A DNA stretch of 64,000 bases. Source: an uncultured Gammaproteobacteria bacterium. GTDB taxonomy: Bacteria > Pseudomonadota > Gammaproteobacteria > Eutrophobiales > Eutrophobiaceae. The stretch lies in assembly GCA_943788815.1 (NCBI GenBank), contig CALSRS010000001.1, positions 1,425,501 to 1,489,500 on the forward strand, given 5' to 3'. This document shows, in pieces, positions 3,153-26,624 of this stretch. The notes beneath the pieces are model-generated. The model saw only the letters and a program-made list of their open reading frames with translations. It was not told where the DNA came from and searched no databases. A program made the translations under genes and the position numbers. Position 1 is the stretch's first letter; the number at the start of each line of letters is the position of its first letter.

Positions 3153-4283
3153 ATGCTACTAATCAATAATGAAATTGTGGATAAGGTCCTCACCATGGGC
3201 GATACCATAGACGTGTTGGAAGATGCTTATACCCAGCATGTAAAAAGTGAATCAGTCTGCCGACCTCGAATTGATGTTCATATACCGACTGAAGATCCAA
3301 AGAAAGTTTATCGTTGGGGTTCCATGGAAGGTGGCTCCATGCATAATTATTTTGCTATCCGTATCAAGTCAGACATCTTATATGAAACCGAATACCAGGG
3401 AGCTATCACCCAGGAAAAATATTGCCGTGAACCAGGTACCTTTTGTGGTTTTATTATCTTGATGAATGTGAATAACGGTGAACCCCTGGCCATAATTAAT
3501 GACGGCGAGTTGCAACATATGCGCGTCGGGGCAGATGGTGGTCTTGGCGTCAAATATGCGGCACGCAACGATTGTCATACCGTGGGCATGTTGGGTTCCG
3601 GTGGCATGTCCCGTTCTCACATTGCCGCCTACATGCATGTACGTCCAGAAATAAAACGACTACAGGTATTCAGTCCTACCCGAACTAACTGTGAAGCCTA
3701 TGCAGATGAAGTCAGGGATAAATATAAACTTGAAGTGGTCGTTTGCGATAAACCTGAACAAGTTTACAAGGATGCCGATATCATTGCTGCCCTGACAGAC
3801 AGTGCAGTGCCGGTAATCGATCCCCAATTAATTAAGCCGGGCGACCATGTTATAAATATTGGTGGTGGTGGTTATATTGGTGGAGGTGGAACGCCAGGTA
3901 ATACCTTGCTTGATCGAATTAATCTTTACTTACGACTCGGTGACGCCACTGCCCCCTGGGGACGACCAGAGTTCGGTGTGTCTGATGAATTTCTAACCTA
4001 TGCAGCAGAACCCGAATCCATGCATAAGCTCGAACACAAGCACATTGGTAAAAAGGGACACGGCAGGTTACCGGTAGAAAATACGGTGACATTTGAGGAT
4101 ATTGTAACCAAAGGATTATCATCGGCCCGTACCAGTGATGATCAAATCTCCTATTCAGAACGAGGCAATATTCAAGGACAACAATTCTGGTCCGTAGCAG
4201 GTAAGGTTTATGAGAAAGCCATAGAACAGGGACTAGGACAGGAGATTCCTACAGATTGGTTTCTGCAAAACATCAGGAATTGA
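3153..4283 (+). CDS. OCD/mu-crystallin-family NAD(P)-binding protein 1
   Basis: 376-residue cytoplasmic protein of the ornithine cyclodeaminase/mu-crystallin superfamily. Known members are NAD(P)-dependent enzymes acting on amino or imino acids. The Rossmann dinucleotide motif GMLGSGGM sits at about residues 145-152. The preceding NDGELQHMRVGADGG replaces the usual DG..LT..RTAA signature but keeps its arginine (R124), and K72 in AIRIKSDI is the likely substrate-site lysine. Two close relatives lie at 7197 and 21617. All three are longer than typical OCDs (about 320-350) and end with a W/FFLQ(D/N)IR tail. RefSeq names similar long proteins tyramine oxidase subunit B, from memory. Substrate unknown. 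Monocistronic, with the tandem array directly at its stop codon. Confidence 0.85.
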   Translation: MLLINNEIVDKVLTMGDTIDVLEDAYTQHVKSESVCRPRIDVHIPTEDPKKVYRWGSMEGGSMHNYFAIRIKSDILYETEYQGAITQEKYCREPGTFCGFIILMNVNNGEPLAIINDGELQHMRVGADGGLGVKYAARNDCHTVGMLGSGGMSRSHIAAYMHVRPEIKRLQVFSPTRTNCEAYADEVRDKYKLEVVVCDKPEQVYKDADIIAALTDSAVPVIDPQLIKPGDHVINIGGGGYIGGGGTPGNTLLDRINLYLRLGDATAPWGRPEFGVSDEFLTYAAEPESMHKLEHKHIGKKGHGRLPVENTVTFEDIVTKGLSSARTSDDQISYSERGNIQGQQFWSVAGKVYEKAIEQGLGQEIPTDWFLQNIRN

Positions 4284-5218: not shown

Positions 5219-6829
5219 TCAGCTGTCTTGCTCGGACTGTAAGCGTTCGAATCGCTTGTTATCACCGGACACGTCCTTAAATACCAGTGACTTAATCATT
5301 ACTGGTACGGTATTGGAAGGTTCACGCAACCTGCCGAGATCAATATAGTCAAAATTCCAGAGTGCTACTCCGTCAATCACTAAAACCGGATTATCGATAT
5401 TGAGATCTTCTTTTAGAATTCGACCAAGATTTAATGCTATATCAGCATCCAGAATGATAAATAGCGGTTTCCCTCGTTTGATTCGTTCTTCCAATCCAGC
5501 TTTTATGCCGTCTGCAAAGGCGCGAATTCGTTTGTAATCTGGATGCCCTTCCCAGTGAAAGGAATGAACAAGGTCGGCATCTGATCCTGTGAGATCAAAA
5601 TTTTGCATTGTTTTTTGAATTTCATTTGCCAACACTTGTTTATCAAATGTTTCCGTAAATTCAAAAGGGGTATGCACAACCTGCAAGTTTCTTCTAGGTA
5701 GTAGTGATTTTGAATCGCTTATATAACCTGTATTGCCGCTAAGCTGAGTAGAATATTCTGATGCTCCCAGTACGGTAGCTCGGATACCCTGACTGTCTTG
5801 ATTTACTTTCCAGGGCAATCTCCCATCTGCAATACATTCACGGACTGCTTCTCCAAGGTACGGTCCAAGATCGCCAAAATCTCTGGGTTCCCTCTCGTAG
5901 ATAAATTCTGAAACACCCCCGGAAAAAACCACGCTATTAATATGTTCGAAACTATTAACAGGATCTGTTAAATATAAATTTTTTGTATTGTCAGACAAGG
6001 TATTGTCAGTAAGCGCATGGACCAGATCATTGGTCATGGATCTGGCAATCGTTGTTAGATCATCACTGGAAACCGAATCACCTAAATTTAGCGTAAGCCC
6101 TGCCCGCTTTGCATGTGACTGACCTGCTGGTTCTATACGCACCACCTCATCCTTGTCATTTACAGCAAGCAATCTACCACCGATATGTAAGGCGGCTGTC
6201 GCCTGAATTAAACCGTTGTCGATAATACTTAACTTGGTAGTTCCACCACCTATATCAATATTCAAGATACGCTCTTTTTCATCATGAGATAACTGCACAG
6301 CACCTGAACCATGAGCCGCCAACATGGCTTCCATGTGATGACCCGCGGCAACACATACCAACTCACCACATTTCTCTGACAGGATCTGGCCTATCCTCTC
6401 TGAATTGGCCCGCCTTAATGCCTCACCTGTCAATATCACGACACCCGTATCGATGTCATCCGGATTTATTCTCGCCTGGTTATATGCCAGGTCCACGATT
6501 TCTCCCAGGGCCTTTGCATCTATCAAAGTTTCACTTTCATAGGGAGTCAGGCTGACGGGAGATTCATACCATGTCTCACGTGACACCACCAGGTAGCGAC
6601 TTGAGAGATCCACAGATTGTCTTTTTAAATGCAGATGTGAAAAGAGGATTTGTGTTCCAGCAGAACCAATATCAATCCCGACACTGGTCAGGGTTACATT
6701 TTCTCTTTGCCACAAGGGATGGTCTTCGATGTTCCCTTCAAAATCGGGGCCAACATAATATCCATCATGGGTATGCCCCGGATCAGGATCATAATAATGA
6801 CTATGTTCTTTTTCAGTATCGTGGGTCAT
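5219..6829 (-). CDS. eutA: EutA-family actin-fold reactivase 1
   Basis: 536 residues matching EutA, the ATP-dependent chaperone that swaps damaged cobalamin in ethanolamine ammonia-lyase. Visible actin/Hsp70-fold motifs are the phosphate-1 loop GIDIGSAGTQ (51-60), LTGEA (133-137), the EutA-type AAGHHMEAMLAAHGSGA (161-177) and phosphate-2 IDIGGGTTK (191-199). The N-terminus carries about 40 extra residues rich in His, Asp and Tyr (EHSHYYDPDPGHTHDGYY), a possible metal-binding tail. No eutB or eutC is present in the window, so the client enzyme is unknown. It is followed by the small methyltransferase and is divergent from OCD-like gene 2 and the TTT genes at 7197-11640. A paralogue lies at 25116-26624, again beside OCD and TTT genes. 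Confidence 0.85.
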   Translation of the reverse strand: MTHDTEKEHSHYYDPDPGHTHDGYYVGPDFEGNIEDHPLWQRENVTLTSVGIDIGSAGTQILFSHLHLKRQSVDLSSRYLVVSRETWYESPVSLTPYESETLIDAKALGEIVDLAYNQARINPDDIDTGVVILTGEALRRANSERIGQILSEKCGELVCVAAGHHMEAMLAAHGSGAVQLSHDEKERILNIDIGGGTTKLSIIDNGLIQATAALHIGGRLLAVNDKDEVVRIEPAGQSHAKRAGLTLNLGDSVSSDDLTTIARSMTNDLVHALTDNTLSDNTKNLYLTDPVNSFEHINSVVFSGGVSEFIYEREPRDFGDLGPYLGEAVRECIADGRLPWKVNQDSQGIRATVLGASEYSTQLSGNTGYISDSKSLLPRRNLQVVHTPFEFTETFDKQVLANEIQKTMQNFDLTGSDADLVHSFHWEGHPDYKRIRAFADGIKAGLEERIKRGKPLFIILDADIALNLGRILKEDLNIDNPVLVIDGVALWNFDYIDLGRLREPSNTVPVMIKSLVFKDVSGDNKRFERLQSEQDS

Positions 6830-7196: not shown

Positions 7197-8333
7197 ATGT
7201 ATATAATTAACAATGACCTGGTTAACCAGGTCCTGACGATGGACATGTGTATAGAAGCACAGGATAAGGCATTTCAAAAAATTCCTACGGGTGGCGCAAT
7301 TCATCGCCCCAGGATAGACATGTACGTCCCCTGTCAACGTGACGATGGCTATTTTCGATGGGGCAGTATGGAAGGGGCGAATGATGGATACTTCGCTATC
7401 CGCATGAAATCCGACATCATGCACTGGCCTAAAGATGAAAATGGAAACTGGACCGAGAAAAAATACTGCCGTGAACCTGGAACCTATTGTGGACTCATCC
7501 TGTTAATTTCCACAGAAAATGCCGAACCTCTGGCGTTCATTAATGATGGCAACCTGCAGCACATGCGTGTTGGTGGTGGTGCTGGTCTTGGGGTCAAATA
7601 CCTTTCCAGAGAAGACAGTCATGTTGTGGGTATGTTGGGTTCTGGCGGTATGGCCAGGACCTTCCTTGAAGCCTTTGCCTGTGTTCGCGACATACAACAA
7701 TGCAGGGTCTATTCCCCTACCGCCGTAAATCGTGAAACCTATGCCGAAGAAATGTCAGACAAACTGGGGATAGATGTGATTGCGGTAAATTCCGCAAAAG
7801 AGGCTGTAGCGGGTTGCGACATCCTGTCATCGTGTACCGACTCCATGCAACCAGTCTATGATGGCGACTGGCTGGAACCGGGCATGCATGTAACCAATCT
7901 CGGGCGACGAGAGATGCCCGACTCAGTCATTAACAAGTTCGATGTGGTCATCCGTCAGGGAACGGCAGGGCTACAAATGAAAATGACTGAAAGGTTTCAG
8001 GCAGAACGCGGACTATCTCCCGCGGCATTTATCGCTGGTTCTGTCGAAGAAATGAAGCGGATTCCTGAGAAAAACCCGCAGCCGGGATTCGGTGGTGATG
8101 ACCCTGATTTTCAAGACAGGGGTAAAGGCAGCGACAAACCAGATTTCGCCGATCTCGTCTCTGGTAAGGCCGAAGGCAGGACCAGTCCTGAGCAAATCAC
8201 CTTTTATCGAAACGTTGGAAACCAGGGACTGCAATTCTCTGCGGTTGGGGCAGTTGTTTATGAAAAAATTAAGGAAATGGGCCTGGGACAGGAAATCCCC
8301 ACAGACTGGTTTTTACAGGATATTCGAGACTAA
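7197..8333 (+). CDS. OCD/mu-crystallin-family NAD(P)-binding protein 2
   Basis: 378 residues, closely related to the genes at 3153 and 21617. The dinucleotide motif GMLGSGGMAR is at 145-154, preceded by NDGNLQHMRVGGGAG (117-131), and RWGSMEG and YFAIRMKSD mark the substrate half. The C-terminal WFLQDIRD is identical to that of copy 3. It is the first gene of a plus-strand unit with tctC, tctA and tctB, 126 bases upstream of tctC. Placement with a carboxylate importer suggests that it acts on the imported compound or its imine (inference). Length exceeds typical ornithine cyclodeaminase by about 30-50 residues, so simple ornithine cyclodeamination is unlikely. Confidence 0.85.
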   Translation: MYIINNDLVNQVLTMDMCIEAQDKAFQKIPTGGAIHRPRIDMYVPCQRDDGYFRWGSMEGANDGYFAIRMKSDIMHWPKDENGNWTEKKYCREPGTYCGLILLISTENAEPLAFINDGNLQHMRVGGGAGLGVKYLSREDSHVVGMLGSGGMARTFLEAFACVRDIQQCRVYSPTAVNRETYAEEMSDKLGIDVIAVNSAKEAVAGCDILSSCTDSMQPVYDGDWLEPGMHVTNLGRREMPDSVINKFDVVIRQGTAGLQMKMTERFQAERGLSPAAFIAGSVEEMKRIPEKNPQPGFGGDDPDFQDRGKGSDKPDFADLVSGKAEGRTSPEQITFYRNVGNQGLQFSAVGAVVYEKIKEMGLGQEIPTDWFLQDIRD

Positions 8334-11742: not shown

Positions 11743-12690
11743 TTAGTTCAAATTTTCTGGAAAAGTTTTAACACCACTATTTTGGGTGATTTCCATCAGT
11801 TTTGTAGGCAGGCGTTCGTGCCTTATTTCCTTTTTTAGTTCATCAAATACTTCGTTCAATGTAGGAACATGGGCAGGAATTTTCTTATACACTGTTAATA
11901 AATGATATCCGAAATCTGACTTAACCGGTCCTTCAAGCTCATTTAAGCTTGCGGCAAATGCGGCACGTTCAAAGTCTGAGCGTGCTATTTGCCCTTCTCT
12001 TGAAAAGCAACCCATGTCTCCGCCCTTTTGTGCAGTTTTACTGTCAGTGCTATGTTGCTTTGCAAGCTCAATAAAATCACCACCTTTTTCCAGGTCCGCC
12101 ATTAATTGATTTGCTGTAGTCTCTTCATCAACCACAATTTGTCTAAGACAAATCTGCTCCGGTTTTTTAATCTCATCCTGGATATCATGATGTAATACGA
12201 CTACATCACCGGGGCGAACAACTATTTCCTCCAGCAATTGTTCCGAAAGGCTTGCCACCATTTGTTTGTCTCTTATTAATGCCAACAAGCGCACATCATC
12301 TAGTGGCTCAGTAATACTGGTATCGGATAATATTTCCTCGCGTATTTCAGCAGCCTGAGCCAATACAGCAGAGTCTGTAACCGCAATTCCCCGCTTAGTG
12401 GCTTCCTGGACCATAGCAAGTTCATTAGCACGTTGTCCTAAATACTGATTGCGTAAACGCTCTATAACGCTTTCGTCTTGATTCCCAAGTGGAATACCTT
12501 GCTGTGCCGCCAACATACGGACTGATACCTTAAATGTGGCTTCAAATTCTGATAGACCAATTTTTGTGTCAGACAGTTCAATCACGACCGGGTCTGATGA
12601 TTGTGCGTATGCATTTGCCTGCATTAATATTAATAATGATAAAGGCAGGCATTTTATTGTGCGAAAAAACATTGAATTGCTTTTGAACAT
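11743..12690 (-). CDS. Exported parvulin-type peptidyl-prolyl isomerase
   Basis: 315-residue periplasmic isomerase that assists folding of exported proteins. Signal peptide about 1-29 (ends ANAYAQ). A helical SurA/PpiD-like N-domain is followed by a parvulin domain at about 177-270 with CLRQIVVDEE, GGDFIELAKQHS, KGGDMGCFSREGQ and SDFGYHLLTV. An alternative start is the Met at residue 7. It sits 41 bases downstream of the split amidohydrolase pair, on the same strand. Cotranscription would make it a dedicated folding helper for those exported proteins (inference). Confidence 0.88.
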   Translation of the reverse strand: MFKSNSMFFRTIKCLPLSLLILMQANAYAQSSDPVVIELSDTKIGLSEFEATFKVSVRMLAAQQGIPLGNQDESVIERLRNQYLGQRANELAMVQEATKRGIAVTDSAVLAQAAEIREEILSDTSITEPLDDVRLLALIRDKQMVASLSEQLLEEIVVRPGDVVVLHHDIQDEIKKPEQICLRQIVVDEETTANQLMADLEKGGDFIELAKQHSTDSKTAQKGGDMGCFSREGQIARSDFERAAFAASLNELEGPVKSDFGYHLLTVYKKIPAHVPTLNEVFDELKKEIRHERLPTKLMEITQNSGVKTFPENLN

Positions 12691-12731: not shown

Positions 12732-14141
12732 CTAACGCTCCACCGGCGTAAAATCAGGATCCTTATATCTGGTCTCACCGGCAAGAACAGTCATCAATAC
12801 TTTATTGTCTCTGACTTGTGTATCTGGTCCGGATAAATAATCCTTATCTATCACTGCAAAGTCTGCAAACTTGCCCACTTTCAGAGATCCAATCTTATCT
12901 TCTGCATAATGAAATTCAGCCGAACGAATCGTAAATAACTTCATAGCAACGACTCGGTCCACGCCCTCTTCTGGAGAAAATACTTCACCTTCTCCAAAGA
13001 TTGCAGGTGCTGTTCGTTCTGTTTCCAGTCCTTTTTCAATTTCACGATTTACATATACATCCATTAAGTCAAAATAGGTTTCAGGTGTAGGGTGACCAAT
13101 CTCACCTTCTCCTACTACATTGACACCAGCATCAAGCAATGTCTTTATTGGACCCAAAAATTTCCAACCAGGTTCACCATAATTTTGACGAATATTATCA
13201 GGCTCGATAGCCAATGCGCGACGTAAGTTAATCGGAACATAAATATTATATTTCTTCCAGCCTTCTACCACGTCTGGTACAGCACCTGTCATAGTGCCAT
13301 GCGCAAACCCATGCCTTGAGTTTCTTACATAATCCAGCGTTAATACACCCGGATTCTTCTGCATAACAAGTTCCAGTTGTTGGGTAAAAATCCTAAACGC
13401 ATGACTACCTGCACCGTGGACGCCGACAAATCGCCAACCAGCTTGAAGTCCTCTTATTAATGCATGTACCACTGGTGAATCAAAATCTGGACAGATCTCT
13501 ATCACCTCTTTGACTTCCGTAGCATCTACACCTGGCTTTGCCATTAGATCATCCCCCAGACAGGCACGGTTCGGGGCGTCCCATTCTCCTTCACTGCTAA
13601 TCCCGCGTAACCAAAGCCAAGGGTTGGCGTTGATCCCCTGCCATTGCACACCAATATTGCCATACAGTCCTGCTGCTGCAGCAGCATTCATAGGTTGCGT
13701 TGCGGTCTCTGCACTCCAGGCGAATCGCACTGGCAGACGATTGTTTTCCCTGAGGATATGCTGAAAACCAGTGACCTGATCGGCGGTCTCAAGACGAGAG
13801 CCAAATGTGGTCATACCAGAAGTAGAATAATATTCATCTGCCAGGATGTTAAACCCATCGGCAAACTGCGGTGGCGATGGCTGCTCTCGCAATAGATTAT
13901 TTATGTGTGATCGTAAAGCCGCCTGAATGATGACGGCTCTTGAACCGGGACTTTCCATTCCTCTGGCCTGACTGTCTACAGAATCTTCAAAGTCTGGCCA
14001 CATATCCAGTATCTTCTCCGTTGCCATATCATTAAACATAATTACCCGATGACTGGCCTGCACAGAAACTGCTAGACACAGCAGAATCATCAATACGCCA
14101 ATCTTGCTCATTATTTCATTCTTCATCATCATTTCCCTCAC
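12732..14141 (-). CDS. C-terminal half of split exported amidohydrolase, copy 1
   Basis: 469 residues covering the second half of a YtcJ/amidohydrolase-type barrel, with its own signal peptide ending SVQAS. The GTG start overlaps the stop of the upstream N-half by four bases (GTGA); the ATG at 14126 behind GAGGGAA is an equally good start. Metal-site candidates are AVHGAGSHAFR-type FVGVHGAGSHAF, the histidines in SRHGFAHGTM, and VVGEGEIGHP. The end GKFADFAVIDKDYLSGP is the usual C-terminal composite-sandwich return. The HxH motif is absent here and lies in the partner gene. The paralogue at 17255-18664 has identical organisation. Substrate unknown. Confidence 0.82.
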   Translation of the reverse strand: MREMMMKNEIMSKIGVLMILLCLAVSVQASHRVIMFNDMATEKILDMWPDFEDSVDSQARGMESPGSRAVIIQAALRSHINNLLREQPSPPQFADGFNILADEYYSTSGMTTFGSRLETADQVTGFQHILRENNRLPVRFAWSAETATQPMNAAAAAGLYGNIGVQWQGINANPWLWLRGISSEGEWDAPNRACLGDDLMAKPGVDATEVKEVIEICPDFDSPVVHALIRGLQAGWRFVGVHGAGSHAFRIFTQQLELVMQKNPGVLTLDYVRNSRHGFAHGTMTGAVPDVVEGWKKYNIYVPINLRRALAIEPDNIRQNYGEPGWKFLGPIKTLLDAGVNVVGEGEIGHPTPETYFDLMDVYVNREIEKGLETERTAPAIFGEGEVFSPEEGVDRVVAMKLFTIRSAEFHYAEDKIGSLKVGKFADFAVIDKDYLSGPDTQVRDNKVLMTVLAGETRYKDPDFTPVER

Positions 14142-14902
14142 TGCAGTTCCACAACACGTTCGAAGACTTCTTCCCCGTTATCACCCACCGTAATGTGATA
14201 CCAAACATTTGCCTCCGGCGCTGACAATATCGATGAGGCACTCGACAACACAAACGGATAGTCCGGCACAATCTCAGAGATATCTGAGCGACTGATACTC
14301 ACATCCGATAAGCGCGGTGCACTCATCAACGTCGATACGTCTGCGGGTGAACCGAATCCCAACTCCGGGTTGTGTAATAAAGATATATTGATCCATTCTT
14401 CAGATTCAGGCTGAACAGTTGATAGTAGTAACTCCATCGCCCGTGCCACTTTAGCCATGGTCTCGTCCGGATTCCCCGCCACATCCATACTCAATGCATA
14501 GCCTTCAGGTGTACTGCGCAGATTGTATTTCTCGCGGGCTATCTCCAGGGCCGCTCCCATGGGATGTACATGACTCTCCACAATACCGGGGATCACCATC
14601 TTCCCCTGTAGGTCAATGACCTTGGTGTTGGGACCTGCCATCTTTAAGATGTCTGCTTCGCTACCCAGGCCGATAATCATTTCGTCACGTACCGCCATGG
14701 CCTGGACTATCGTCCCGGGATTGGAATTCATCTCATGATCATCCAGGGTCATTATCGTGGTATTCACATACACCGCGTCAGCATATTAAATGATCGCCGA
14801 GGGTAAGGTGGAGATATCCTGAGCAATCAGTCGTACCGGTGTCATTAACAGGAAACATAGGCCCAAGAGAAAAGTCAGTGAGTTAAGAGTTGATCGTTGC
14901 AT
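14138..14902 (-). pseudogene. N-terminal half of split amidohydrolase, copy 1, with in-frame stop
   Basis: By comparison with 18661-19425, the gene should start at ATG 14902 (MQRST, then a signal peptide ending RLIAQ). An in-frame TAA at 14786-14788 is codon 39, where the paralogue has CGC (Arg). The remaining open frame, 14138-14773 from a GTG, encodes 211 residues with the N-terminal sandwich and the metal-binding ESHVHPMG, but no signal peptide. If the stop is real, the fragment would stay in the cytoplasm while its C-half partner is exported. It could be a recent pseudogene, a read-through stop or a sequence error. Everything downstream of the stop is intact. Confidence 0.7.
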
Positions 14903-14905
14903 TCA

Positions 14906-15212
14906 TCTTTCTCCAATGGATAAATAAAAAAACTATAAATTTTTTTATCCGATAGTGTTATCCCGAGTGCGGGAGATATAATTTCATAATTATCGAATTA
15001 TTGATTCTAATTATGATATATAAGTGTGTGACCTGTAACAGGGGATGTCAACAAGCTAAAAAATTAAAAACTCCTTAATAATCTGCATATTAGCTGAGTC
15101 ATTGTGAAAATAATGTGCAGTCAAAAAACTGTGAAATTTACACTACTATTGACATGGTTTTACACATTCAGGAGACTCAAATACAAATAGTTATATTAAA
15201 GAGGTCGAGATT
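14906..15212. promoter_or_regulatory. Divergent promoter region, split amidohydrolase 1 / alpha-beta hydrolase
   Basis: AT-rich 307-base gap between divergent genes, with no coding signal. A consensus-like TTGACA lies at 15149-15154, without a convincing -10 box at the right distance. The near-palindrome GTGAAATTTACAC at 15131-15143 could be an operator. Both are weak, by-eye assignments. Confidence 0.35.
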
Positions 15213-17096
15213 ATGAAGAATACAGCTCATGGATTATTCAGTGTTCTTATATTACTAATGGCCTATCCATCGTCCGCACAATCAAACTGCCCACTACTTG
15301 ACCAGTACATGGCACCATTTAATCTTCCTGTAGATAGCTGGTCAGTAAATATTGCAGGTCCTGCTCCAGGTGATGTTGAGCAACGATTAGTCGGGCCTGA
15401 AGAATGTCAGATCGTTTCTGAGAAAAAAATCTCCAATGCTTACGGCACTCCCTATCGGCAGGTGACGATAGCAATTAGCGGAAGTGTTTTTGGATACGCG
15501 CCAGTTAATTCTTTGGTACTTCCCCCCCTGGGTACTGGTGCGCAAGGAGAAGGTCAGGAGCATTTTTTTTCCGATCATGCGCTAATCTGGCAGGCCAGGG
15601 GCATCATGGGGCCATTCATCCCCGGAGTTGCAAGTTATCAATATACCCCTTCAACACCTGCCAGCGTCGAGATATTAATACCTGAAAACACGGATGATTG
15701 GAATGGCAGTATGTGGGTACTGGTCCACGGTGGCGGTCGTTACCCACCACTGCGTATGCATCCCAGGAAACCCAGGCAATTTAACCGCTATGATGAAACT
15801 AGTGAATCTGCAGGGGCACTGATTGATCAAGGTTATGCTGTTATCTGGACGAGAAGAGATGCGGCCACCTCAGTAGGAACTTCCATCGATATACCCACTA
15901 CGGCAATACTGGATAACGATATGGAGGTTGGAGGACCTGGAAAACCCGGTATGGCATTAAATGAAAACCTGGGGCTCATGCGAGACTATACCGTGATCAG
16001 TCGAAATTATGTCGAGATGCAATTGGGAAGACGACCAGAAGCAATTTTTTTTCGAGGTCATTCAGCCGGCGGTGCTATGGGGCGAAGCTTTCAGATAGTC
16101 AAAGGAATGAATACAGACCACGAGGGAAATAAATTATTTGATGGTTTTTATCTAGACGACAGCGCTGGAGGACGGGGATCCACGGCCTATTTCTGGGAAG
16201 CTGAAGTGATTGATGAGATTGGTTCATTCCGTTTAAATCCAACCGATACCGATACCTTAAACATAGATGATGATCAGACCCGGTTTATGTCACCAGTCAT
16301 TGAGGTTATCCATGAATTATATTCCGGTGGCAGAACGGCAACCGTTCCCCGTGTATTTGAGCGCGTGCCTGCAACCTATACTCATTACAAACGTGAGAAT
16401 GCCAGGATAAATATTGAAAAAGGTCTTGGGGACATGTGGAAATCATATGAAATAGCAGGTGTCAGTCATTCTGATGCCTCAGCTGAGGCCTTTGATTATC
16501 CCGAACTGGCAAAAGAGATGGTTGATATTGGTGGTGTTGCAAATGCATTAAGCCAGGCCCTGGCTGACTGGGTACTCAAAGGCAGAAAACCACCAGAGAC
16601 CCGAGTAGCCGCAGCAGACGTATGGGAAATTGATCCCAAAACTGGTCCGGCAATACATCTGCCGTATACCGCATGTCCAAGGGGTGTCTTCAGGACTTAT
16701 ATGAACCGGCCAGATGGCACGTCAGTGGGCTCTTCTCCTGCGTTATTTGTTCCTTATTTAACGGTTGTCCGTCCCCAGATTAATGAAGATCAGCCCAGAC
16801 CGCCTGGATTCCAGGAAGAGTGGCTGGAACCATTAAACCGGAAGGGGTACCTGGTAGACATGACGGGCAGCGGTCACCGCATGACTCGACCAACGATCCA
16901 GCAAATCTGGCATGTGCGCTACAAGGAAGGCAAAAAGACGGGGATATTAGCTCCCTATGAGATACTTACAAGAGATCGGTACATACAATGTGTCACCGAT
17001 GTGGTGAACGATCTCTATACAGATGAATTGCTGACACCTGAAGCCCGGGACTGGTATATAGAACAGGCACATAGAGATGATATTGGGGTGAAATAA
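15213..17096 (+). CDS. Secreted alpha/beta hydrolase (esterase/tannase-like)
   Basis: 627-residue exported serine hydrolase. Signal peptide 1-22 (ends YPSSAQ). Oxyanion-type HGGG at 172-175 and nucleophile elbow GHSAGG at 282-287 (Ser284). Likely acid/His residues lie later, around GVSHSDASAE and GSGHRM. The C-terminal third resembles the alpha/beta hydrolase domain proteins often found with catabolic operons. It is flanked by two split-amidohydrolase pairs, the left one divergent and the right one convergent, so it may act in the same pathway on an ester or amide. Substrate unknown. No close paralogue in the window; the hydrolases at 53348 and 62922 are a different family. Confidence 0.8.
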   Translation: MKNTAHGLFSVLILLMAYPSSAQSNCPLLDQYMAPFNLPVDSWSVNIAGPAPGDVEQRLVGPEECQIVSEKKISNAYGTPYRQVTIAISGSVFGYAPVNSLVLPPLGTGAQGEGQEHFFSDHALIWQARGIMGPFIPGVASYQYTPSTPASVEILIPENTDDWNGSMWVLVHGGGRYPPLRMHPRKPRQFNRYDETSESAGALIDQGYAVIWTRRDAATSVGTSIDIPTTAILDNDMEVGGPGKPGMALNENLGLMRDYTVISRNYVEMQLGRRPEAIFFRGHSAGGAMGRSFQIVKGMNTDHEGNKLFDGFYLDDSAGGRGSTAYFWEAEVIDEIGSFRLNPTDTDTLNIDDDQTRFMSPVIEVIHELYSGGRTATVPRVFERVPATYTHYKRENARINIEKGLGDMWKSYEIAGVSHSDASAEAFDYPELAKEMVDIGGVANALSQALADWVLKGRKPPETRVAAADVWEIDPKTGPAIHLPYTACPRGVFRTYMNRPDGTSVGSSPALFVPYLTVVRPQINEDQPRPPGFQEEWLEPLNRKGYLVDMTGSGHRMTRPTIQQIWHVRYKEGKKTGILAPYEILTRDRYIQCVTDVVNDLYTDELLTPEARDWYIEQAHRDDIGVK

Positions 17097-17254
17097 AAAT
17101 GAGGGTTGATGTGTCGGCACCCTGGAATCATGGCGTTATTGCGTAGATGTGAACATGTGAAATACTGAAGTTGTTTTTTATAAGATTAGAGTTTAAGTTC
17201 AACGGTTACTCCAGATAAATATCGACACTTCATCCCTCACTACTCATATCTACA

Positions 17255-18664
17255 TTATCTTTCTATTAGATTAAAATCCGGATCCCGATACCGCGTCTCC
17301 CCTGCCAATACCGTCATCAACACCTTGTTCTTTCTAACCTCGGTATCCGGACCAGATAAGAAATCCTTATCTATGACAGCAAAGTCCGCAAACTTGCCTA
17401 TTTCCAGGGTACCAATCTTGTTTTCCGCATAATGAAATTCAGCAGAACGGCTAGTGATGAGCTTTAATGCAACGACCCTGTCGATGCCTTCTTCAGGGAT
17501 ATAGATTTCTCCCTCACCAAAATTTTCGGGAATGGGTCTGCCTTCACTGGTGCCTTTACTGATCTCTCGATTGACATATACATCCACCTGCTTGAAATAG
17601 GTAGTAGGATCAGGATGGCCGATTTCCGCTTCCCCTACGACTTTTACCCCCATATCCAACAAGGTTTTCACAGGACCTAAAAATTCCCATCCTGGTTCAC
17701 CATAATTCTGGCGGATATTTTCCGGCTCGATAGCCAGAGCGCGACGTAAATTGATTGGAATATAAATATTATAATGCTTAATCTTTTCCATCACTTCAGG
17801 TATTGCACCAGTCAGGGTGCCATGGGCAAAACCATGCCTGGATTTACGCACGTAATCCAGGTTCAATACACTAGGATTTTTTTGCATTGCTTCCTCAAGT
17901 TTCTGGACAAAGATTCGAAATCCATGGCTACCAACACCATGAACTGCAACAAACCGCCAACCCGCGTTTAGCGCACGGATTAGTGATTGCACATTGGGAG
18001 ATGTAAAATCTGGACATATTTCCAATACCTCTTTGACTTGCACACGGTCAACGCCGGGCTTTGCCGGTAGATCGTCTCCCTGACAACCCCGGTTTGGTGC
18101 ATCCCATCCACCTTCACTGCTGACACCCCGTAACCATAACCAGGGATTGGAATTGATCCCCTGCCATTGGACACCAATGTTTGCATATAAGCCTGAAGCA
18201 GCGGCCGCTGGTATGGGTTGGGTATGGGTTTCTGCACTCCAGGTAAACCGTACTGGTAGGCGGTTTTCTTCACGAAGGATATGTTGAAATCCAGAGACAA
18301 CATCCGCGGTATCAAGACGTGAACCAAAAGTAGTCATACCGGAAGGAGAATAAAAGTCATCAGCCAAAGATTTAAATCCTTCAGCAAATTGTGCAGGAGA
18401 AGGTTGTTCCCGCAACAGATTATTGATATGTGACCTCAAACCGGTTTGGACAATTAATGATCTGGCACCGGGATCTTCCATTCCTCGAGATTCATTATTG
18501 ATAGATTCGGCAAAGTCCGGCCACATGTCGAGAATCTTCTCCGTAGCCATATCATTGAATAGCAATGCCCTGTGACTGGCCTGAACGGACATACCCAGGC
18601 ATAACAGAACCCAAAATAATCCAAGTTTATTCACCTTGCTAATCTTCATTGCCTTCCCCCTCAC
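17255..18664 (-). CDS. C-terminal half of split exported amidohydrolase, copy 2
   Basis: 469 residues, collinear with and very similar to copy 1 (12732-14141). The open frame begins with GTG overlapping the N-half stop (GTGA). The ATG at 18649, preceded by GAGGGGGAAGGC, gives the better start and a signal peptide MKISKVNKLGLFWVLLCLG...SVQA. Likely metal and catalytic residues are the histidines in AVHGVGSHGFR and SRHGFAHGTL and the acidic loop VVGEAEIGHPDP. The C-terminal GKFADFAVIDKDFLSGP matches metal-dependent hydrolase ends. It must pair with the N-half, because the ESHVHPMG metal motif is only there. Confidence 0.85.
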   Translation of the reverse strand: MRGKAMKISKVNKLGLFWVLLCLGMSVQASHRALLFNDMATEKILDMWPDFAESINNESRGMEDPGARSLIVQTGLRSHINNLLREQPSPAQFAEGFKSLADDFYSPSGMTTFGSRLDTADVVSGFQHILREENRLPVRFTWSAETHTQPIPAAAASGLYANIGVQWQGINSNPWLWLRGVSSEGGWDAPNRGCQGDDLPAKPGVDRVQVKEVLEICPDFTSPNVQSLIRALNAGWRFVAVHGVGSHGFRIFVQKLEEAMQKNPSVLNLDYVRKSRHGFAHGTLTGAIPEVMEKIKHYNIYIPINLRRALAIEPENIRQNYGEPGWEFLGPVKTLLDMGVKVVGEAEIGHPDPTTYFKQVDVYVNREISKGTSEGRPIPENFGEGEIYIPEEGIDRVVALKLITSRSAEFHYAENKIGTLEIGKFADFAVIDKDFLSGPDTEVRKNKVLMTVLAGETRYRDPDFNLIER

Positions 18665-19425
18665 TGCAATTCCACGACACGTTCAAATACCTCTTCGCCA
18701 TTCGGTCCTACCGTAATGTGGTACCACACATTCGCCTCAGGCGCCGACAATATCGATGACGCACTCGATAATACAAACGGATAATCAGGCACAATTTCTG
18801 ATATGTCCGACCGACTGATACTCACATCCGATAAGCGCGGCGCACTCATCAACGTTGATACATCTGCCGGTGAGGAAAATCCTAACTCCGGATTATGTAA
18901 CAAGGAGATATTTATCCACTCCTCCGGGGCCGGCTGTATCGTTGAAAGCAATAACTCCATCGCCTGAGCCACCTTTGCCATGGTCTCGTCCGGGTTCGCC
19001 GCCACTTCCATACTCAGTGCAAACCCTTCCGGGGTACTCTTGAGATTATACTTCTCACGCGCAATCTCCAGTGATGCCCCCATGGGGTGTACATGACTCT
19101 CTATTATCCCCGGTATCACCATCTTACCCTGAAGATCGATCACCTTCGTATCCGGCCCTGCCATCTTTAAGACCTCTGCTTCACTCCCCAAGCCAATAAT
19201 CACCTCGTCTCTTATTGCCATCGCCTCAACAATGGTCCCCGGGTTAGAGTTCATCTCATGGTCATCCAGGGTCATGATTGTGGCATTAACATAGACTGCG
19301 TCGGCATAGCGTATGATCTCCGCTGGCAGTGTTGAAATATCCTGGGCCATCACCCGTACGGAACCGCTGAGCAGCAAACAAATACTCAGCAAAAATGTCA
19401 GGATGTTTTGATATGATCGTTGCAT
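18661..19425 (-). CDS. N-terminal half of split exported amidohydrolase, copy 2
   Basis: 254 residues from ATG 19425, chosen because GGAGAGAGCCT precedes it; an ATG at 19446 would place the ribosome site inside the gene. Signal peptide of about 28 residues ends RVMAQ. The N-terminal sandwich (TIMTLDDHEMNSNPGTIVEA, then GKMVIPGIIESHVHPMG) carries the HxH metal motif of the amidohydrolase superfamily. It ends at VWYHITVG...VVELQ, where single-chain relatives continue into the barrel. The C-half gene overlaps its stop by four bases. Both halves have their own signal peptide, so a two-chain periplasmic enzyme is likely (inference). Confidence 0.85.
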   Translation of the reverse strand: MQRSYQNILTFLLSICLLLSGSVRVMAQDISTLPAEIIRYADAVYVNATIMTLDDHEMNSNPGTIVEAMAIRDEVIIGLGSEAEVLKMAGPDTKVIDLQGKMVIPGIIESHVHPMGASLEIAREKYNLKSTPEGFALSMEVAANPDETMAKVAQAMELLLSTIQPAPEEWINISLLHNPELGFSSPADVSTLMSAPRLSDVSISRSDISEIVPDYPFVLSSASSILSAPEANVWYHITVGPNGEEVFERVVELQ

Positions 19426-21616: not shown

Positions 21617-22738
21617 TCAGTCCCGGATATCCTGTAAAAACCATTCAGTAGGTAATTGCTTGCCCAGTTGCCTGGCAAGTGCTGCCTCATAGACCAGGCC
21701 ACTGACAGCGGCAAACTGTAAACCTTGATTCCCTGCATTTATATATGCAGTAATCTGCTCATCATTTGTCCTGCCTGATATCCGCCCATGGGCCAGATCA
21801 TTAAAATCAGGAAAATCCCTTCTAAATAATGTCTGGTGTTGTTCAGCGGGCAAGCGCTGCATTTCCGATTCTGAACCAGCGATATATGCCAGTGGACTAT
21901 TACCGATACCAGACTTTATTCTTGGATCATCATCTCCATTTCCCGCCACGGCACCCGCCACCCCCTGTCTTATGACTATGTCCGCTTTTTCAAATATGTC
22001 CTCAGTTAATTCAAAGGGGCTAAGATTGACGATATGCATACCAGGCATTAACCATTCTTTTTTAACGGTTGGAACCATACTACTGGTACAGGTGGCAAGA
22101 ATATCAACACCATCCACGGCAGCTTCAGGACTATCAACTGCAATGACAGATATACCATGTAGTTTTTTCATCTCCTTGGCATAAAGTTTTCTGTTATCAG
22201 GATTGGGACTATAGACTTTGACCTCCTTGATGTCTCTCACCTTGCAGAATGCATCCAGATAAGTACGCGCCATTCCACCAGAACCAATTATCCCAACCTT
22301 GTCTGCATCCTTTCTGGCCAAATATTTGGCACCCAGACCTGCACCTCCACCTACCCGCATATGCTGTAAATGTCCGTCATTAATAAAAGCAAGAGGCTCC
22401 CCATTACGGGTGGAAAATACCATTATCAAACCACAGTAGGTACCAGGGTTTACACAATATTTATCTTCACGTTCGAGCCCGCTGAGTTCATCACTAGACC
22501 AGGTAATCACATCAGATTTCATACGAATAGCAAAATAGGGGCCAGGCACACTGGTCGCACCTTCCATGGTACCCCACCGCCAGTAGCCATCTTCACGTTC
22601 GCAGGGGACATACATATCTATACGGGGGCGATGAACAGAGCTGCCATCGTCGATTCCAAGAAATGAGGCTTCCTGAACCTTGATACAATCCGCCATATCC
22701 AGCAAGGTCATGACGTCATTATTATTGATCACAAGCAT
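21617..22738 (-). CDS. OCD/mu-crystallin-family NAD(P)-binding protein 3
   Basis: 373 residues, third member of the long OCD-like set. Motifs: HRPRIDMYVPCERED (36-50), YFAIRMKSD, NDGHLQHMRVGGGAG (120-134) and IIGSGGMART (150-159), ending WFLQDIRD. The R in QHMRV and the lysine in RMKSD occupy the substrate positions expected for OCDs. It lies between tctC and the decarboxylase-like gene in the eight-gene operon, so its substrate is probably imported by that TTT system or produced by the cupin or EutA client enzyme (inference). Confidence 0.87.
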   Translation of the reverse strand: MLVINNNDVMTLLDMADCIKVQEASFLGIDDGSSVHRPRIDMYVPCEREDGYWRWGTMEGATSVPGPYFAIRMKSDVITWSSDELSGLEREDKYCVNPGTYCGLIMVFSTRNGEPLAFINDGHLQHMRVGGGAGLGAKYLARKDADKVGIIGSGGMARTYLDAFCKVRDIKEVKVYSPNPDNRKLYAKEMKKLHGISVIAVDSPEAAVDGVDILATCTSSMVPTVKKEWLMPGMHIVNLSPFELTEDIFEKADIVIRQGVAGAVAGNGDDDPRIKSGIGNSPLAYIAGSESEMQRLPAEQHQTLFRRDFPDFNDLAHGRISGRTNDEQITAYINAGNQGLQFAAVSGLVYEAALARQLGKQLPTEWFLQDIRD

Positions 22739-25115: not shown

Positions 25116-26624
25116 TCATGAAAATAACAGGGATTTTATTACTACCGGCACAACTCCGGGCGGGTCAATTAATTCGCCTACGTCCACATAATCCAGTTCC
25201 TGTAATTGCACCCCATCCACAGATAATAACTTTGCTGGAAAATGATGTTCACGTATCAGGATATTTCCCATAATATTTGCGATATCACCATCTATCATGA
25301 GCAACAATGGCTGAGTTCTGGCGCCATCCTTTAGCACCGCAGTACATATCCCTTTTGCCATGGCATTCAGACGTGAATATTCAGGATCTCCCTGCCAGCT
25401 AAATGCAATGGCAATACAGGTATCGATGGGTTTATCTATTCTATTAATTCCATCACGTATTGCTTTACTAATAATGTTTGCATCAATCGTATTTGACAGG
25501 TCAACATGCAATTGAACTACAGGAATGTTGTGGACTGGTAAAATATCAACATGAGATAAATAGATAGTCTTACCACTTACCTGTACCGTAAATTGAGAAG
25601 CACCAATGACTGTTGCCCGTATCCCCTGCCCGGGATCCATGATTTCAAGGTCAACATTATTTTTAAGTTGATTATTTAAACTGCTAACCAGCAAAGGGGC
25701 AATATCACCAAACTCTTTCATCTCTCCGTGCAGAAGGTATTCAGATACACCTCCGGAAAATGTTAATCCTTGAGGTTCCACATGGCGTTCCAGATCTTCT
25801 GTTAACTGTAATGCCTTGCCTAAATTATCAGTTGCCCCTGATTTAATAAAATCAATGACTACATCTACCAGACGTCCTACTATTTTTTCTCTGATAACTA
25901 CATTATTTAGTGATTCAGGATCTACAGGCAACTCCAGCTCTTTTGCGACAAGATGAGCTGAGTCATCGACCCGGTTCCAGGTACCATTTTCATCTTTTGC
26001 TAATAATCGGCCTCCTACTGCAAAGGCGCAGACACTTAATACTTTCCCCTTATCTATTAATGCCAGCTTGGTTGTGCCTCCTCCAATATCCACATGTAAG
26101 ATGCAAATATTTTTTTCTTTTGAAAGTGCAACTGCTCCAGAACCATGAGCTGCCAGGGTACATTCCAATTTATGTCCTGCTGTCGCGCATACGAACTTAC
26201 CGGCTTCTTCTGCGAAAAGATCAGCTATTGCACGAGCATTTTTTCTCTTTATGGCTTCGCCAGTCAGTATGACTGCACCACTATCAATATCACTTCTGGT
26301 GAAACCCGCTTGCTGATAAGACTTATGAATAAAGTCTTCCAGCATGGTGATATCTATCGTCCCATCTCCAAGGAAGGGGGTAAGCATGATAGGTGAACGA
26401 TGAATAACTTCTCTTCGTGTTACGACAAAACGGCTGGAAAGGGATTGGGTACTTCTTTGCAATCGAATTTTTGCAAATAATAAATGCGAGGTTGAACTGC
26501 CTATATCTATCCCCGCTGTTGTTAATTCCACTGTCTCCTGCCGCCAAATAGAATCAGCAGCGGCCTTAATATCATCTTCATGAATATGTCCATGCAGTAG
26601 ACCGTGACCTTCGTGTAATAACAT
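25116..26624 (-). CDS. eutA: EutA-family actin-fold reactivase 2
   Basis: 502 residues, paralogue of 5219-6829. Phosphate-1 GIDIGSSTSH (38-47), LTGEAIKRKNA, CATAGHKLECTLAAHGSGA and phosphate-2 VDIGGGTTKLAL are all present, as in EutA, which restores cobalamin-dependent ethanolamine ammonia-lyase. The N-terminus is again His-rich (HEGHGLLHGHIHEDD). No cobalamin enzyme is encoded nearby. It lies 23 bases after tctB and 87 before the cupin in the cassette B operon. Conservation of nucleotide-binding residues argues for an active ATPase. The client could be a lyase elsewhere in the genome or an operon product. Confidence 0.86.
   Translation of the reverse strand: MLLHEGHGLLHGHIHEDDIKAAADSIWRQETVELTTAGIDIGSSTSHLLFAKIRLQRSTQSLSSRFVVTRREVIHRSPIMLTPFLGDGTIDITMLEDFIHKSYQQAGFTRSDIDSGAVILTGEAIKRKNARAIADLFAEEAGKFVCATAGHKLECTLAAHGSGAVALSKEKNICILHVDIGGGTTKLALIDKGKVLSVCAFAVGGRLLAKDENGTWNRVDDSAHLVAKELELPVDPESLNNVVIREKIVGRLVDVVIDFIKSGATDNLGKALQLTEDLERHVEPQGLTFSGGVSEYLLHGEMKEFGDIAPLLVSSLNNQLKNNVDLEIMDPGQGIRATVIGASQFTVQVSGKTIYLSHVDILPVHNIPVVQLHVDLSNTIDANIISKAIRDGINRIDKPIDTCIAIAFSWQGDPEYSRLNAMAKGICTAVLKDGARTQPLLLMIDGDIANIMGNILIREHHFPAKLLSVDGVQLQELDYVDVGELIDPPGVVPVVIKSLLFS

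Follow-up and report, generated by a model that had tools for sequence, protein, structure and literature searches.

A putative periplasmic amidohydrolase divided between two separately exported chains in one gammaproteobacterial genus

The window analysed here, a 64,000-nt stretch of contig CALSRS010000001.1 from an uncultured Gammaproteobacteria bacterium (GCA_943788815.1), carries two copies of a gene pair on its minus strand, each consisting of an N-terminal and a C-terminal half of an amidohydrolase-like protein, at the place where the first-pass annotation had described them (Table 1). The HxH motif that this annotation assigned to the N-half can be read in copy 2 as SHVHPMG, and the remaining barrel strands (2-8) and candidate metal residues (H237, H276 and E340) would, from alignment and models, lie in the C-half, as it had also proposed. 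The C-half has its own signal peptide in both copies, again as it had stated.

Table 1. Positions of the split pairs, their predicted functional features and their gene neighbours. Positions without prefix are those of the window; C1 denotes a contig of the window genome and L numbers denote other loci.
Feature	Position	Strand	Remarks
Copy 2 pair, N-half and C-half	17255-19425	-	intact; both halves predicted to be exported by signal peptide
Copy 2 N-half, 254 aa	18661..19425	-	intact; signal peptide, beta-sandwich strands, barrel strand 1 with HxH, insertion region
Copy 2 N-half signal peptide MQRSYQNILTFLLSICLLLSGSVRVMA, cleaved before Q	19345..19425	-	cleavage site by pattern; sequence and hydrophobicity
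Copy 2 HxH metal motif, N-half H111 and H113	19087..19095	-	invariant in split and fused relatives
Copy 2 N-half stop TGA, overlapped by C-half ribosome site GAGGGGGAAGG	18650..18663	-	serves ATG at 18649
Copy 2 C-half, 464 aa from ATG	17255..18649	-	intact; signal peptide, barrel strands 2-8, closing sandwich strands
Copy 2 C-half signal peptide MKISKVNKLGLFWVLLCLGMSVQA, cleaved before S	18578..18649	-	cleavage site by pattern; sequence and hydrophobicity
Copy 2 C-half H237, strand 5	17939..17941	-	invariant; alignment
Copy 2 C-half H276, strand 6	17822..17824	-	invariant; alignment
Copy 2 C-half E340, strand 8	17630..17632	-	invariant, in place of the usual Asp region; alignment
Copy 1 N-half, interrupted	14138..14902	-	frame broken by TAA
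Copy 1 N-half, in-frame TAA	14786..14788	-	directly after signal peptide; sequence
Copy 1 N-half, internal GTG ORF	14138-14773	-	no signal peptide; reading frames
Copy 1 C-half	12732..14129	-	intact; own signal peptide; 75% identical to copy 2 C-half
SurA-like chaperone / parvulin peptidyl-prolyl isomerase, exported	11743..12690	-	41 nt downstream of copy 1 C-half
Alpha/beta-hydrolase PF20091, exported, between both copies	15213..17096	+	profile match
Tandem split locus of the window genome	C1:1360099-1366586		N+4C
D-type pair of the window genome	near C1:1009240-1011368		
Exported protein of about 240 aa after D-type pairs	L048:5410-6126; L086:4931-5683; L088:7309-7995; L090:6303-7028		
LigK-type aldolases	L046:16845-17522; L054:13356-14063; L056:11745-12440		L046 by profile, others by similar sequence start

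The claim that both copies share the same architecture stands for the N/C order and for the C-halves, which are intact in both, but not for the N-half of copy 1, where an in-frame stop codon had been missed. Because this TAA follows the signal peptide directly, the copy 1 N-half, as read, is predicted not to be exported. Beyond the stop it is 91% identical to the copy 2 N-half, with few amino-acid changes, and the downstream sequence still looks constrained (dN 0.05, dS near saturation); for this reason the stop probably arose recently, a sequence error being the less likely alternative. Recent gene conversion between the two N-halves was considered and rejected, no low-dS stretch being found in a windowed comparison. 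Elsewhere in the window, the gene at 25116-26624 encodes an EutA-like protein (316 bits, below the NCBIfam cut-off of 598) and clusters with tripartite tricarboxylate transporter, cupin and ornithine-cyclodeaminase-like genes; the start of a gene at 5219-6829 resembles its start, and three further genes (3153-4283, 7197-8333 and 21617-22738) have starts similar to one another, one of them belonging by Pfam to the ornithine cyclodeaminase/mu-crystallin family.

The division is not confined to the window, nor to its species. Fourteen split loci, holding 19 C-halves and 13 N-halves, were found in all five sampled species of the genus and belong to two subfamilies, here labelled W-type and D-type; at all of them the barrel is divided between two genes rather than encoded in one chain, and at two of the 14, cut by contig ends, one half only is visible. 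The window genome (G000, 3.23 Mb) has five: the two in the window, a tandem locus of the order N+C+C+C+C, one on contig 2 and a divergent pair, the D-type. It thereby holds eight C-halves and four intact N-halves. G007 has a tandem N+4C locus, a second W-type pair and a D-type pair, G009 has one W-type and one D-type, and G010 two W-type and one D-type; in G008 an N-half lies where a contig ends, and its neighbours resemble those of window copy 2. Wherever the contig extends far enough, an N-half stands ahead of the first C-half of the locus. Fused relatives coexist with split forms in the same genomes, seven of them in G000 (677-741 aa, 35-38% identity to the split forms over the C part). In the comparison of split with fused homologues, which the first-pass annotation had proposed as a test, the window species does not stand alone, since all five species have split loci. 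Its view that the split is no chance frameshift is borne out by the same division at 14 loci in five species, with both halves under purifying selection, and chance frameshifting is rejected on this conservation. The G000 assembly (C1, C2, C3) is also rich in amidohydrolase-like genes, with 50 matches to PF01979 in its 3.23 Mb, many of which are next to one another.

Outside this genus of aquatic bacteria no member of either split subfamily was seen. Among 398 genomes of the phylum and 369 of the class, with the top few candidates per genome scored, there was no match at E 1e-30 or 1e-25 besides the window's own genome; the relatives returned by a profile search were all distant and single-chain, with open frames of 577-610 aa, and plasmids gave five partial matches. 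A scan of the genome contigs returned two loci.

The two genes had been described as overlapping by four bases, GTGA. This overlap is present only with a GTG start (at 18664 in copy 2, a possible alternative start of the C-half), and eight of the nine N/C junctions compared point to an ATG start 5-11 nt downstream of the N stop codon, which is itself overlapped by a GGAG/GAGG-like ribosome site; the ninth, a D-type junction, has a longer gap. The GTGA overlap is probably a misreading of the start codon, an actual overlap being possible but unlikely. Because the ribosome site overlaps the N stop, translation of the two halves is probably coupled. The distance between the halves varies among loci (5, 10, 11 and about 63 nt), as does their relative frame.

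A signal-like segment lies directly before the mature domain in all 19 C-halves, with a maximum 13-residue hydrophobicity of 1.9-3.6 over a scan of up to 36 residues before the conserved domain start, whereas the same place in 15 fused homologues reaches at most 0.59. Because of this difference, the linker of the fused form is, as far as can be judged from sequence, replaced by a signal peptide in the C-halves. Most of these segments end in AxA-like sites (VQA/S, ANA/A, SQA/A), signal peptides being judged throughout by hydrophobicity and pattern and not by a trained predictor.

Both C-halves of the window match PF07969 (Amidohydro_3) at 77.9 and 75.6 bits, above its cut-off of 29.7, and the N-halves match positions 1-29 of the profile only, just below that cut-off (26.6 and 25.3 bits). 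When each half was modelled singly with AlphaFold2, the C-half (pLDDT 81.9, pTM 0.77) gave seven barrel strands, read as strands 2-8, with closing sandwich strands, and the N-half gave a moderate model (pLDDT 80.6, pTM 0.52) with the other sandwich strands and the insertion, in which the HxH loop (residues 108-115) has a pLDDT below 50. Among solved structures, the C-half superposes on 3igh 196-500 (Z 24.0) and 3icj 204-501 (Z 22.1), and the N-half on 3igh 18-78 (Z 6.9, rmsd 2.6) and, loosely, on 3icj 35-170 (Z 7.2, rmsd 14.1); in a Foldseek search with the N-half alone, the amidohydrolase fragment 3ggm was the sole match with E under 0.001. Barrel strand 1 and HxH are absent from every C-half, and in the models neither half makes a whole barrel. 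Two independent folds, which the first-pass annotation had named as evidence against a divided enzyme, were not predicted, the halves falling on complementary ranges of 3icj. They would be complementary parts of one chain, with barrel strand 1 and sandwich strands in the N-half and strands 2-8 in the C-half.

The HxH on strand 1 is invariant in all N-halves and fused homologues, H237 and H276 are invariant in 31 sequences, and E340 is invariant in the C-halves and fused homologues; H237 aligns with the His of VAVHAIGD in 3icj. No Lys of the kind that is carboxylated in a two-metal centre occurs in the strand 4 region, whether in split or in fused members. The strand 8 Asp is also missing, the Asp of other members aligning two residues after E340; TDGD occurs at the strand 8 place only in the distant paralogue O47, and more distant paralogues in the window genome also carry Glu there. 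Because the strand 8 Asp is replaced by an invariant Glu, we regard the pair as a divergent relative of the Amidohydro_3/YtcJ-like amidohydrolases and not as a canonical YtcJ enzyme. The metal site would consist of HxH, His, His and Glu, and because it is non-canonical, with no strand 4 Lys and Glu in place of the strand 8 Asp, catalysis is not assured. C189 and C212 are likewise invariant and would fit a periplasmic disulfide.

In a tree of the C part, the branch that sets split members apart from fused ones has support of 97/95, and in a tree of the joined halves, including D-type rows and outgroups, support of 74/96; the trees favour, but do not prove, a single division event. A possible origin is tandem duplication of a fused exported gene followed by complementary losses, which would have left a signal peptide on each part. 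Both halves show low dN against near-saturated dS, as under purifying selection, dN/dS values being rough with dS near or beyond saturation (the comparison of C2_47 with G7_126 was unaligned and was discarded). The four tandem C-halves of G000 are orthologous to those of G007, pairing with them one-to-one at 89-93% identity and dN 0.04-0.07. Residues specific to individual tandem paralogues were not significantly enriched at the active-site rim under three rim definitions (p 0.22-0.30); strand 3 and the loop that follows strand 8 were the only places with a higher density of them, and diversification of the pocket is suggested at most.

A SurA-like exported gene follows the C-half at five W-type loci (the window, L046, L054, L056 and L057). 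Its SurA N-terminal domain scores above the cut-off of 27.2 bits in the window (33.7), L057 (37.0) and L056 (34.2) and below it in L046 (24.5) and L054 (19.4), and a parvulin domain is found in the genes of the window and L057 only; the SurA N-terminal part alone, without parvulin, was seen at L046:5379-5966, L054:1834-2457 and L056:7369-8040. At all four D-type loci the pair is followed by an exported protein of about 240 aa with a WNDFMIDNKND motif, without a match in the two that were scanned against Pfam, and a relative of this protein occurs at L055:7007-7582 beside the W-type pair of G009. The window's module of an amidohydrolase, a divergent exported alpha/beta-hydrolase and a further amidohydrolase recurs around fused amidohydrolases, in L049 and partly in L059; the modules that contain split forms thus resemble those that contain fused ones. 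Close to the tandem locus are a LigK aldolase gene (above the NCBIfam cut-off) and a TonB-dependent receptor gene, neighbours that give a weak hint of a possible role in the catabolism of imported aromatic compounds. A LigK-type aldolase and an Amidohydro_2-type gene adjoin split loci in three species.

We think it likely that these genes encode a two-chain periplasmic hydrolase assembled after export, with N-halves probably shared among C-halves. The two-chain part of this reading is that of the first-pass annotation, and it is supported by the signal-like segments of all 19 C-halves and by the complementary 3icj ranges; assembly and activity we infer. An Amidohydro_3/YtcJ-like chain would have been cut in a variable linker, the one that joins strand 1 and its insertion to strand 2, the halves becoming two genes of one operon. 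Each half has a Sec-type signal peptide of its own; the two would pass through the inner membrane in unfolded form and dock in the periplasm, the N-half supplying the first metal motif (HxH, strand 1) and several sandwich strands, and the C-half strands 2-8, most of the pocket and the remaining conserved residues (two His and one Glu). One metal site would thus be built from both chains, and the assembled pair would hydrolyse some substrate. The adjacent SurA-like chaperone, or the other conserved exported protein, may help in assembly. N-halves are probably shared because one N stands beside four conserved C-halves and because copy 1 has an intact C beside a broken N, and since the genome has twice as many C-halves as intact N-halves, an N-half may serve more than one C-half, which would give several specificities. 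The stronger form of this idea, a combinatorial system in which a common N-subunit joins any of several C-subunits with specificities of their own, helped by a dedicated exported chaperone, we put forward tentatively, at a little under an even chance.

The excess of C-halves over intact N-halves, the single N beside four Cs and the retention of the copy 1 C-half next to an interrupted N-half would also be explained if the C-halves worked alone, as homomers with a rebuilt or strand-swapped barrel, the N-half being separate or dispensable. We consider this improbable, as no C-half has barrel strand 1 or HxH, and the N-halves keep an invariant HxH, are under purifying selection and stand before the first C-half wherever the contig reaches that far. 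It is to a similar degree doubtful that the assembled pair is a pseudoenzyme, serving for binding or as a scaffold after loss of the canonical metal residues. The strand 4 Lys and the Asp at the usual strand 8 position, both absent here, are both essential in BwBSH1, an exported Amidohydro_3 enzyme and metal-dependent bile salt hydrolase of 945 aa in a single chain (PMC13081902). However, HxH, H237, H276 and E340 do not vary among the relatives, split or fused, and distant paralogues share the Glu, which makes an altered metal site no less likely than an inactive one.

The stop codon in the copy 1 N-half could be taken to mean that the halves are remnants of broken genes, and it is for this half alone that gene decay is not contradicted; elsewhere the division conserved at 14 loci in five species, the new signal peptide of each C-half and the low dN make such an account very unlikely. 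Programmed frameshifting or stop readthrough, which would fuse the halves into one chain, would suit the short distance between the genes, but every C-half is equipped with a ribosome site and a signal peptide of its own, and at the tandem locus four Cs follow a single N; as distances and relative frames differ between loci, programmed frameshifting was rejected, and fusion by either route is hardly credible.

If two exported chains do assemble into one hydrolase, a natural catalytic TIM barrel of this kind would be a rare test case for the folding of a barrel from pieces, and for how halves find each other after crossing a membrane. The N+4C operon offers a direct test of whether one barrel fragment serves several partners, broadening substrate range cheaply; one N beside four different Cs is suggestive, though not yet proof, of enzymes made from interchangeable parts outside the cytoplasm. 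The case bears on annotation too, as the halves score as partial amidohydrolases and would be set aside as fragments.

The fused Amidohydro_3 homologues of the genus (e.g. C1:1313887-1315971, 695 aa; L049-L053, L059) have the same conserved motif order as the split forms, with the identity over the C part given above, and most have their own N-terminal signal peptide; those in L049 and L059 have a homologous exported alpha/beta-hydrolase neighbour, as in the window. They differ in being one chain, in which the stretch at the split site is not hydrophobic and has no signal peptide. BwBSH1 resembles the split pair in its Amidohydro_3 domain, Sec signal peptide, HxH and two further His ligands, and differs in its single chain and in its Lys and Asp ligands, absent from the split pair (PMC13081902). 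The Pyrococcus metal-dependent hydrolases 3icj and 3igh, solved structures of the Amidohydro_3 fold, are the best structural matches to the C-half (Z 22-24), and the N-half matches their complementary N-terminal part, but both are single chains and identity is low (16-23%). No split or two-subunit amidohydrolase, or divided barrel of the superfamily, was found in the open-access literature (subscription journals were outside its scope), which is weak evidence that a divided barrel in this superfamily has not been reported earlier. TIM barrels have been rebuilt from two chains by engineering or fragment complementation; these are cytoplasmic laboratory constructs, usually cut near the middle. 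In contrast, the split pair described here is natural, is predicted to be exported as separate chains, and is cut after strand 1 and the insertion.
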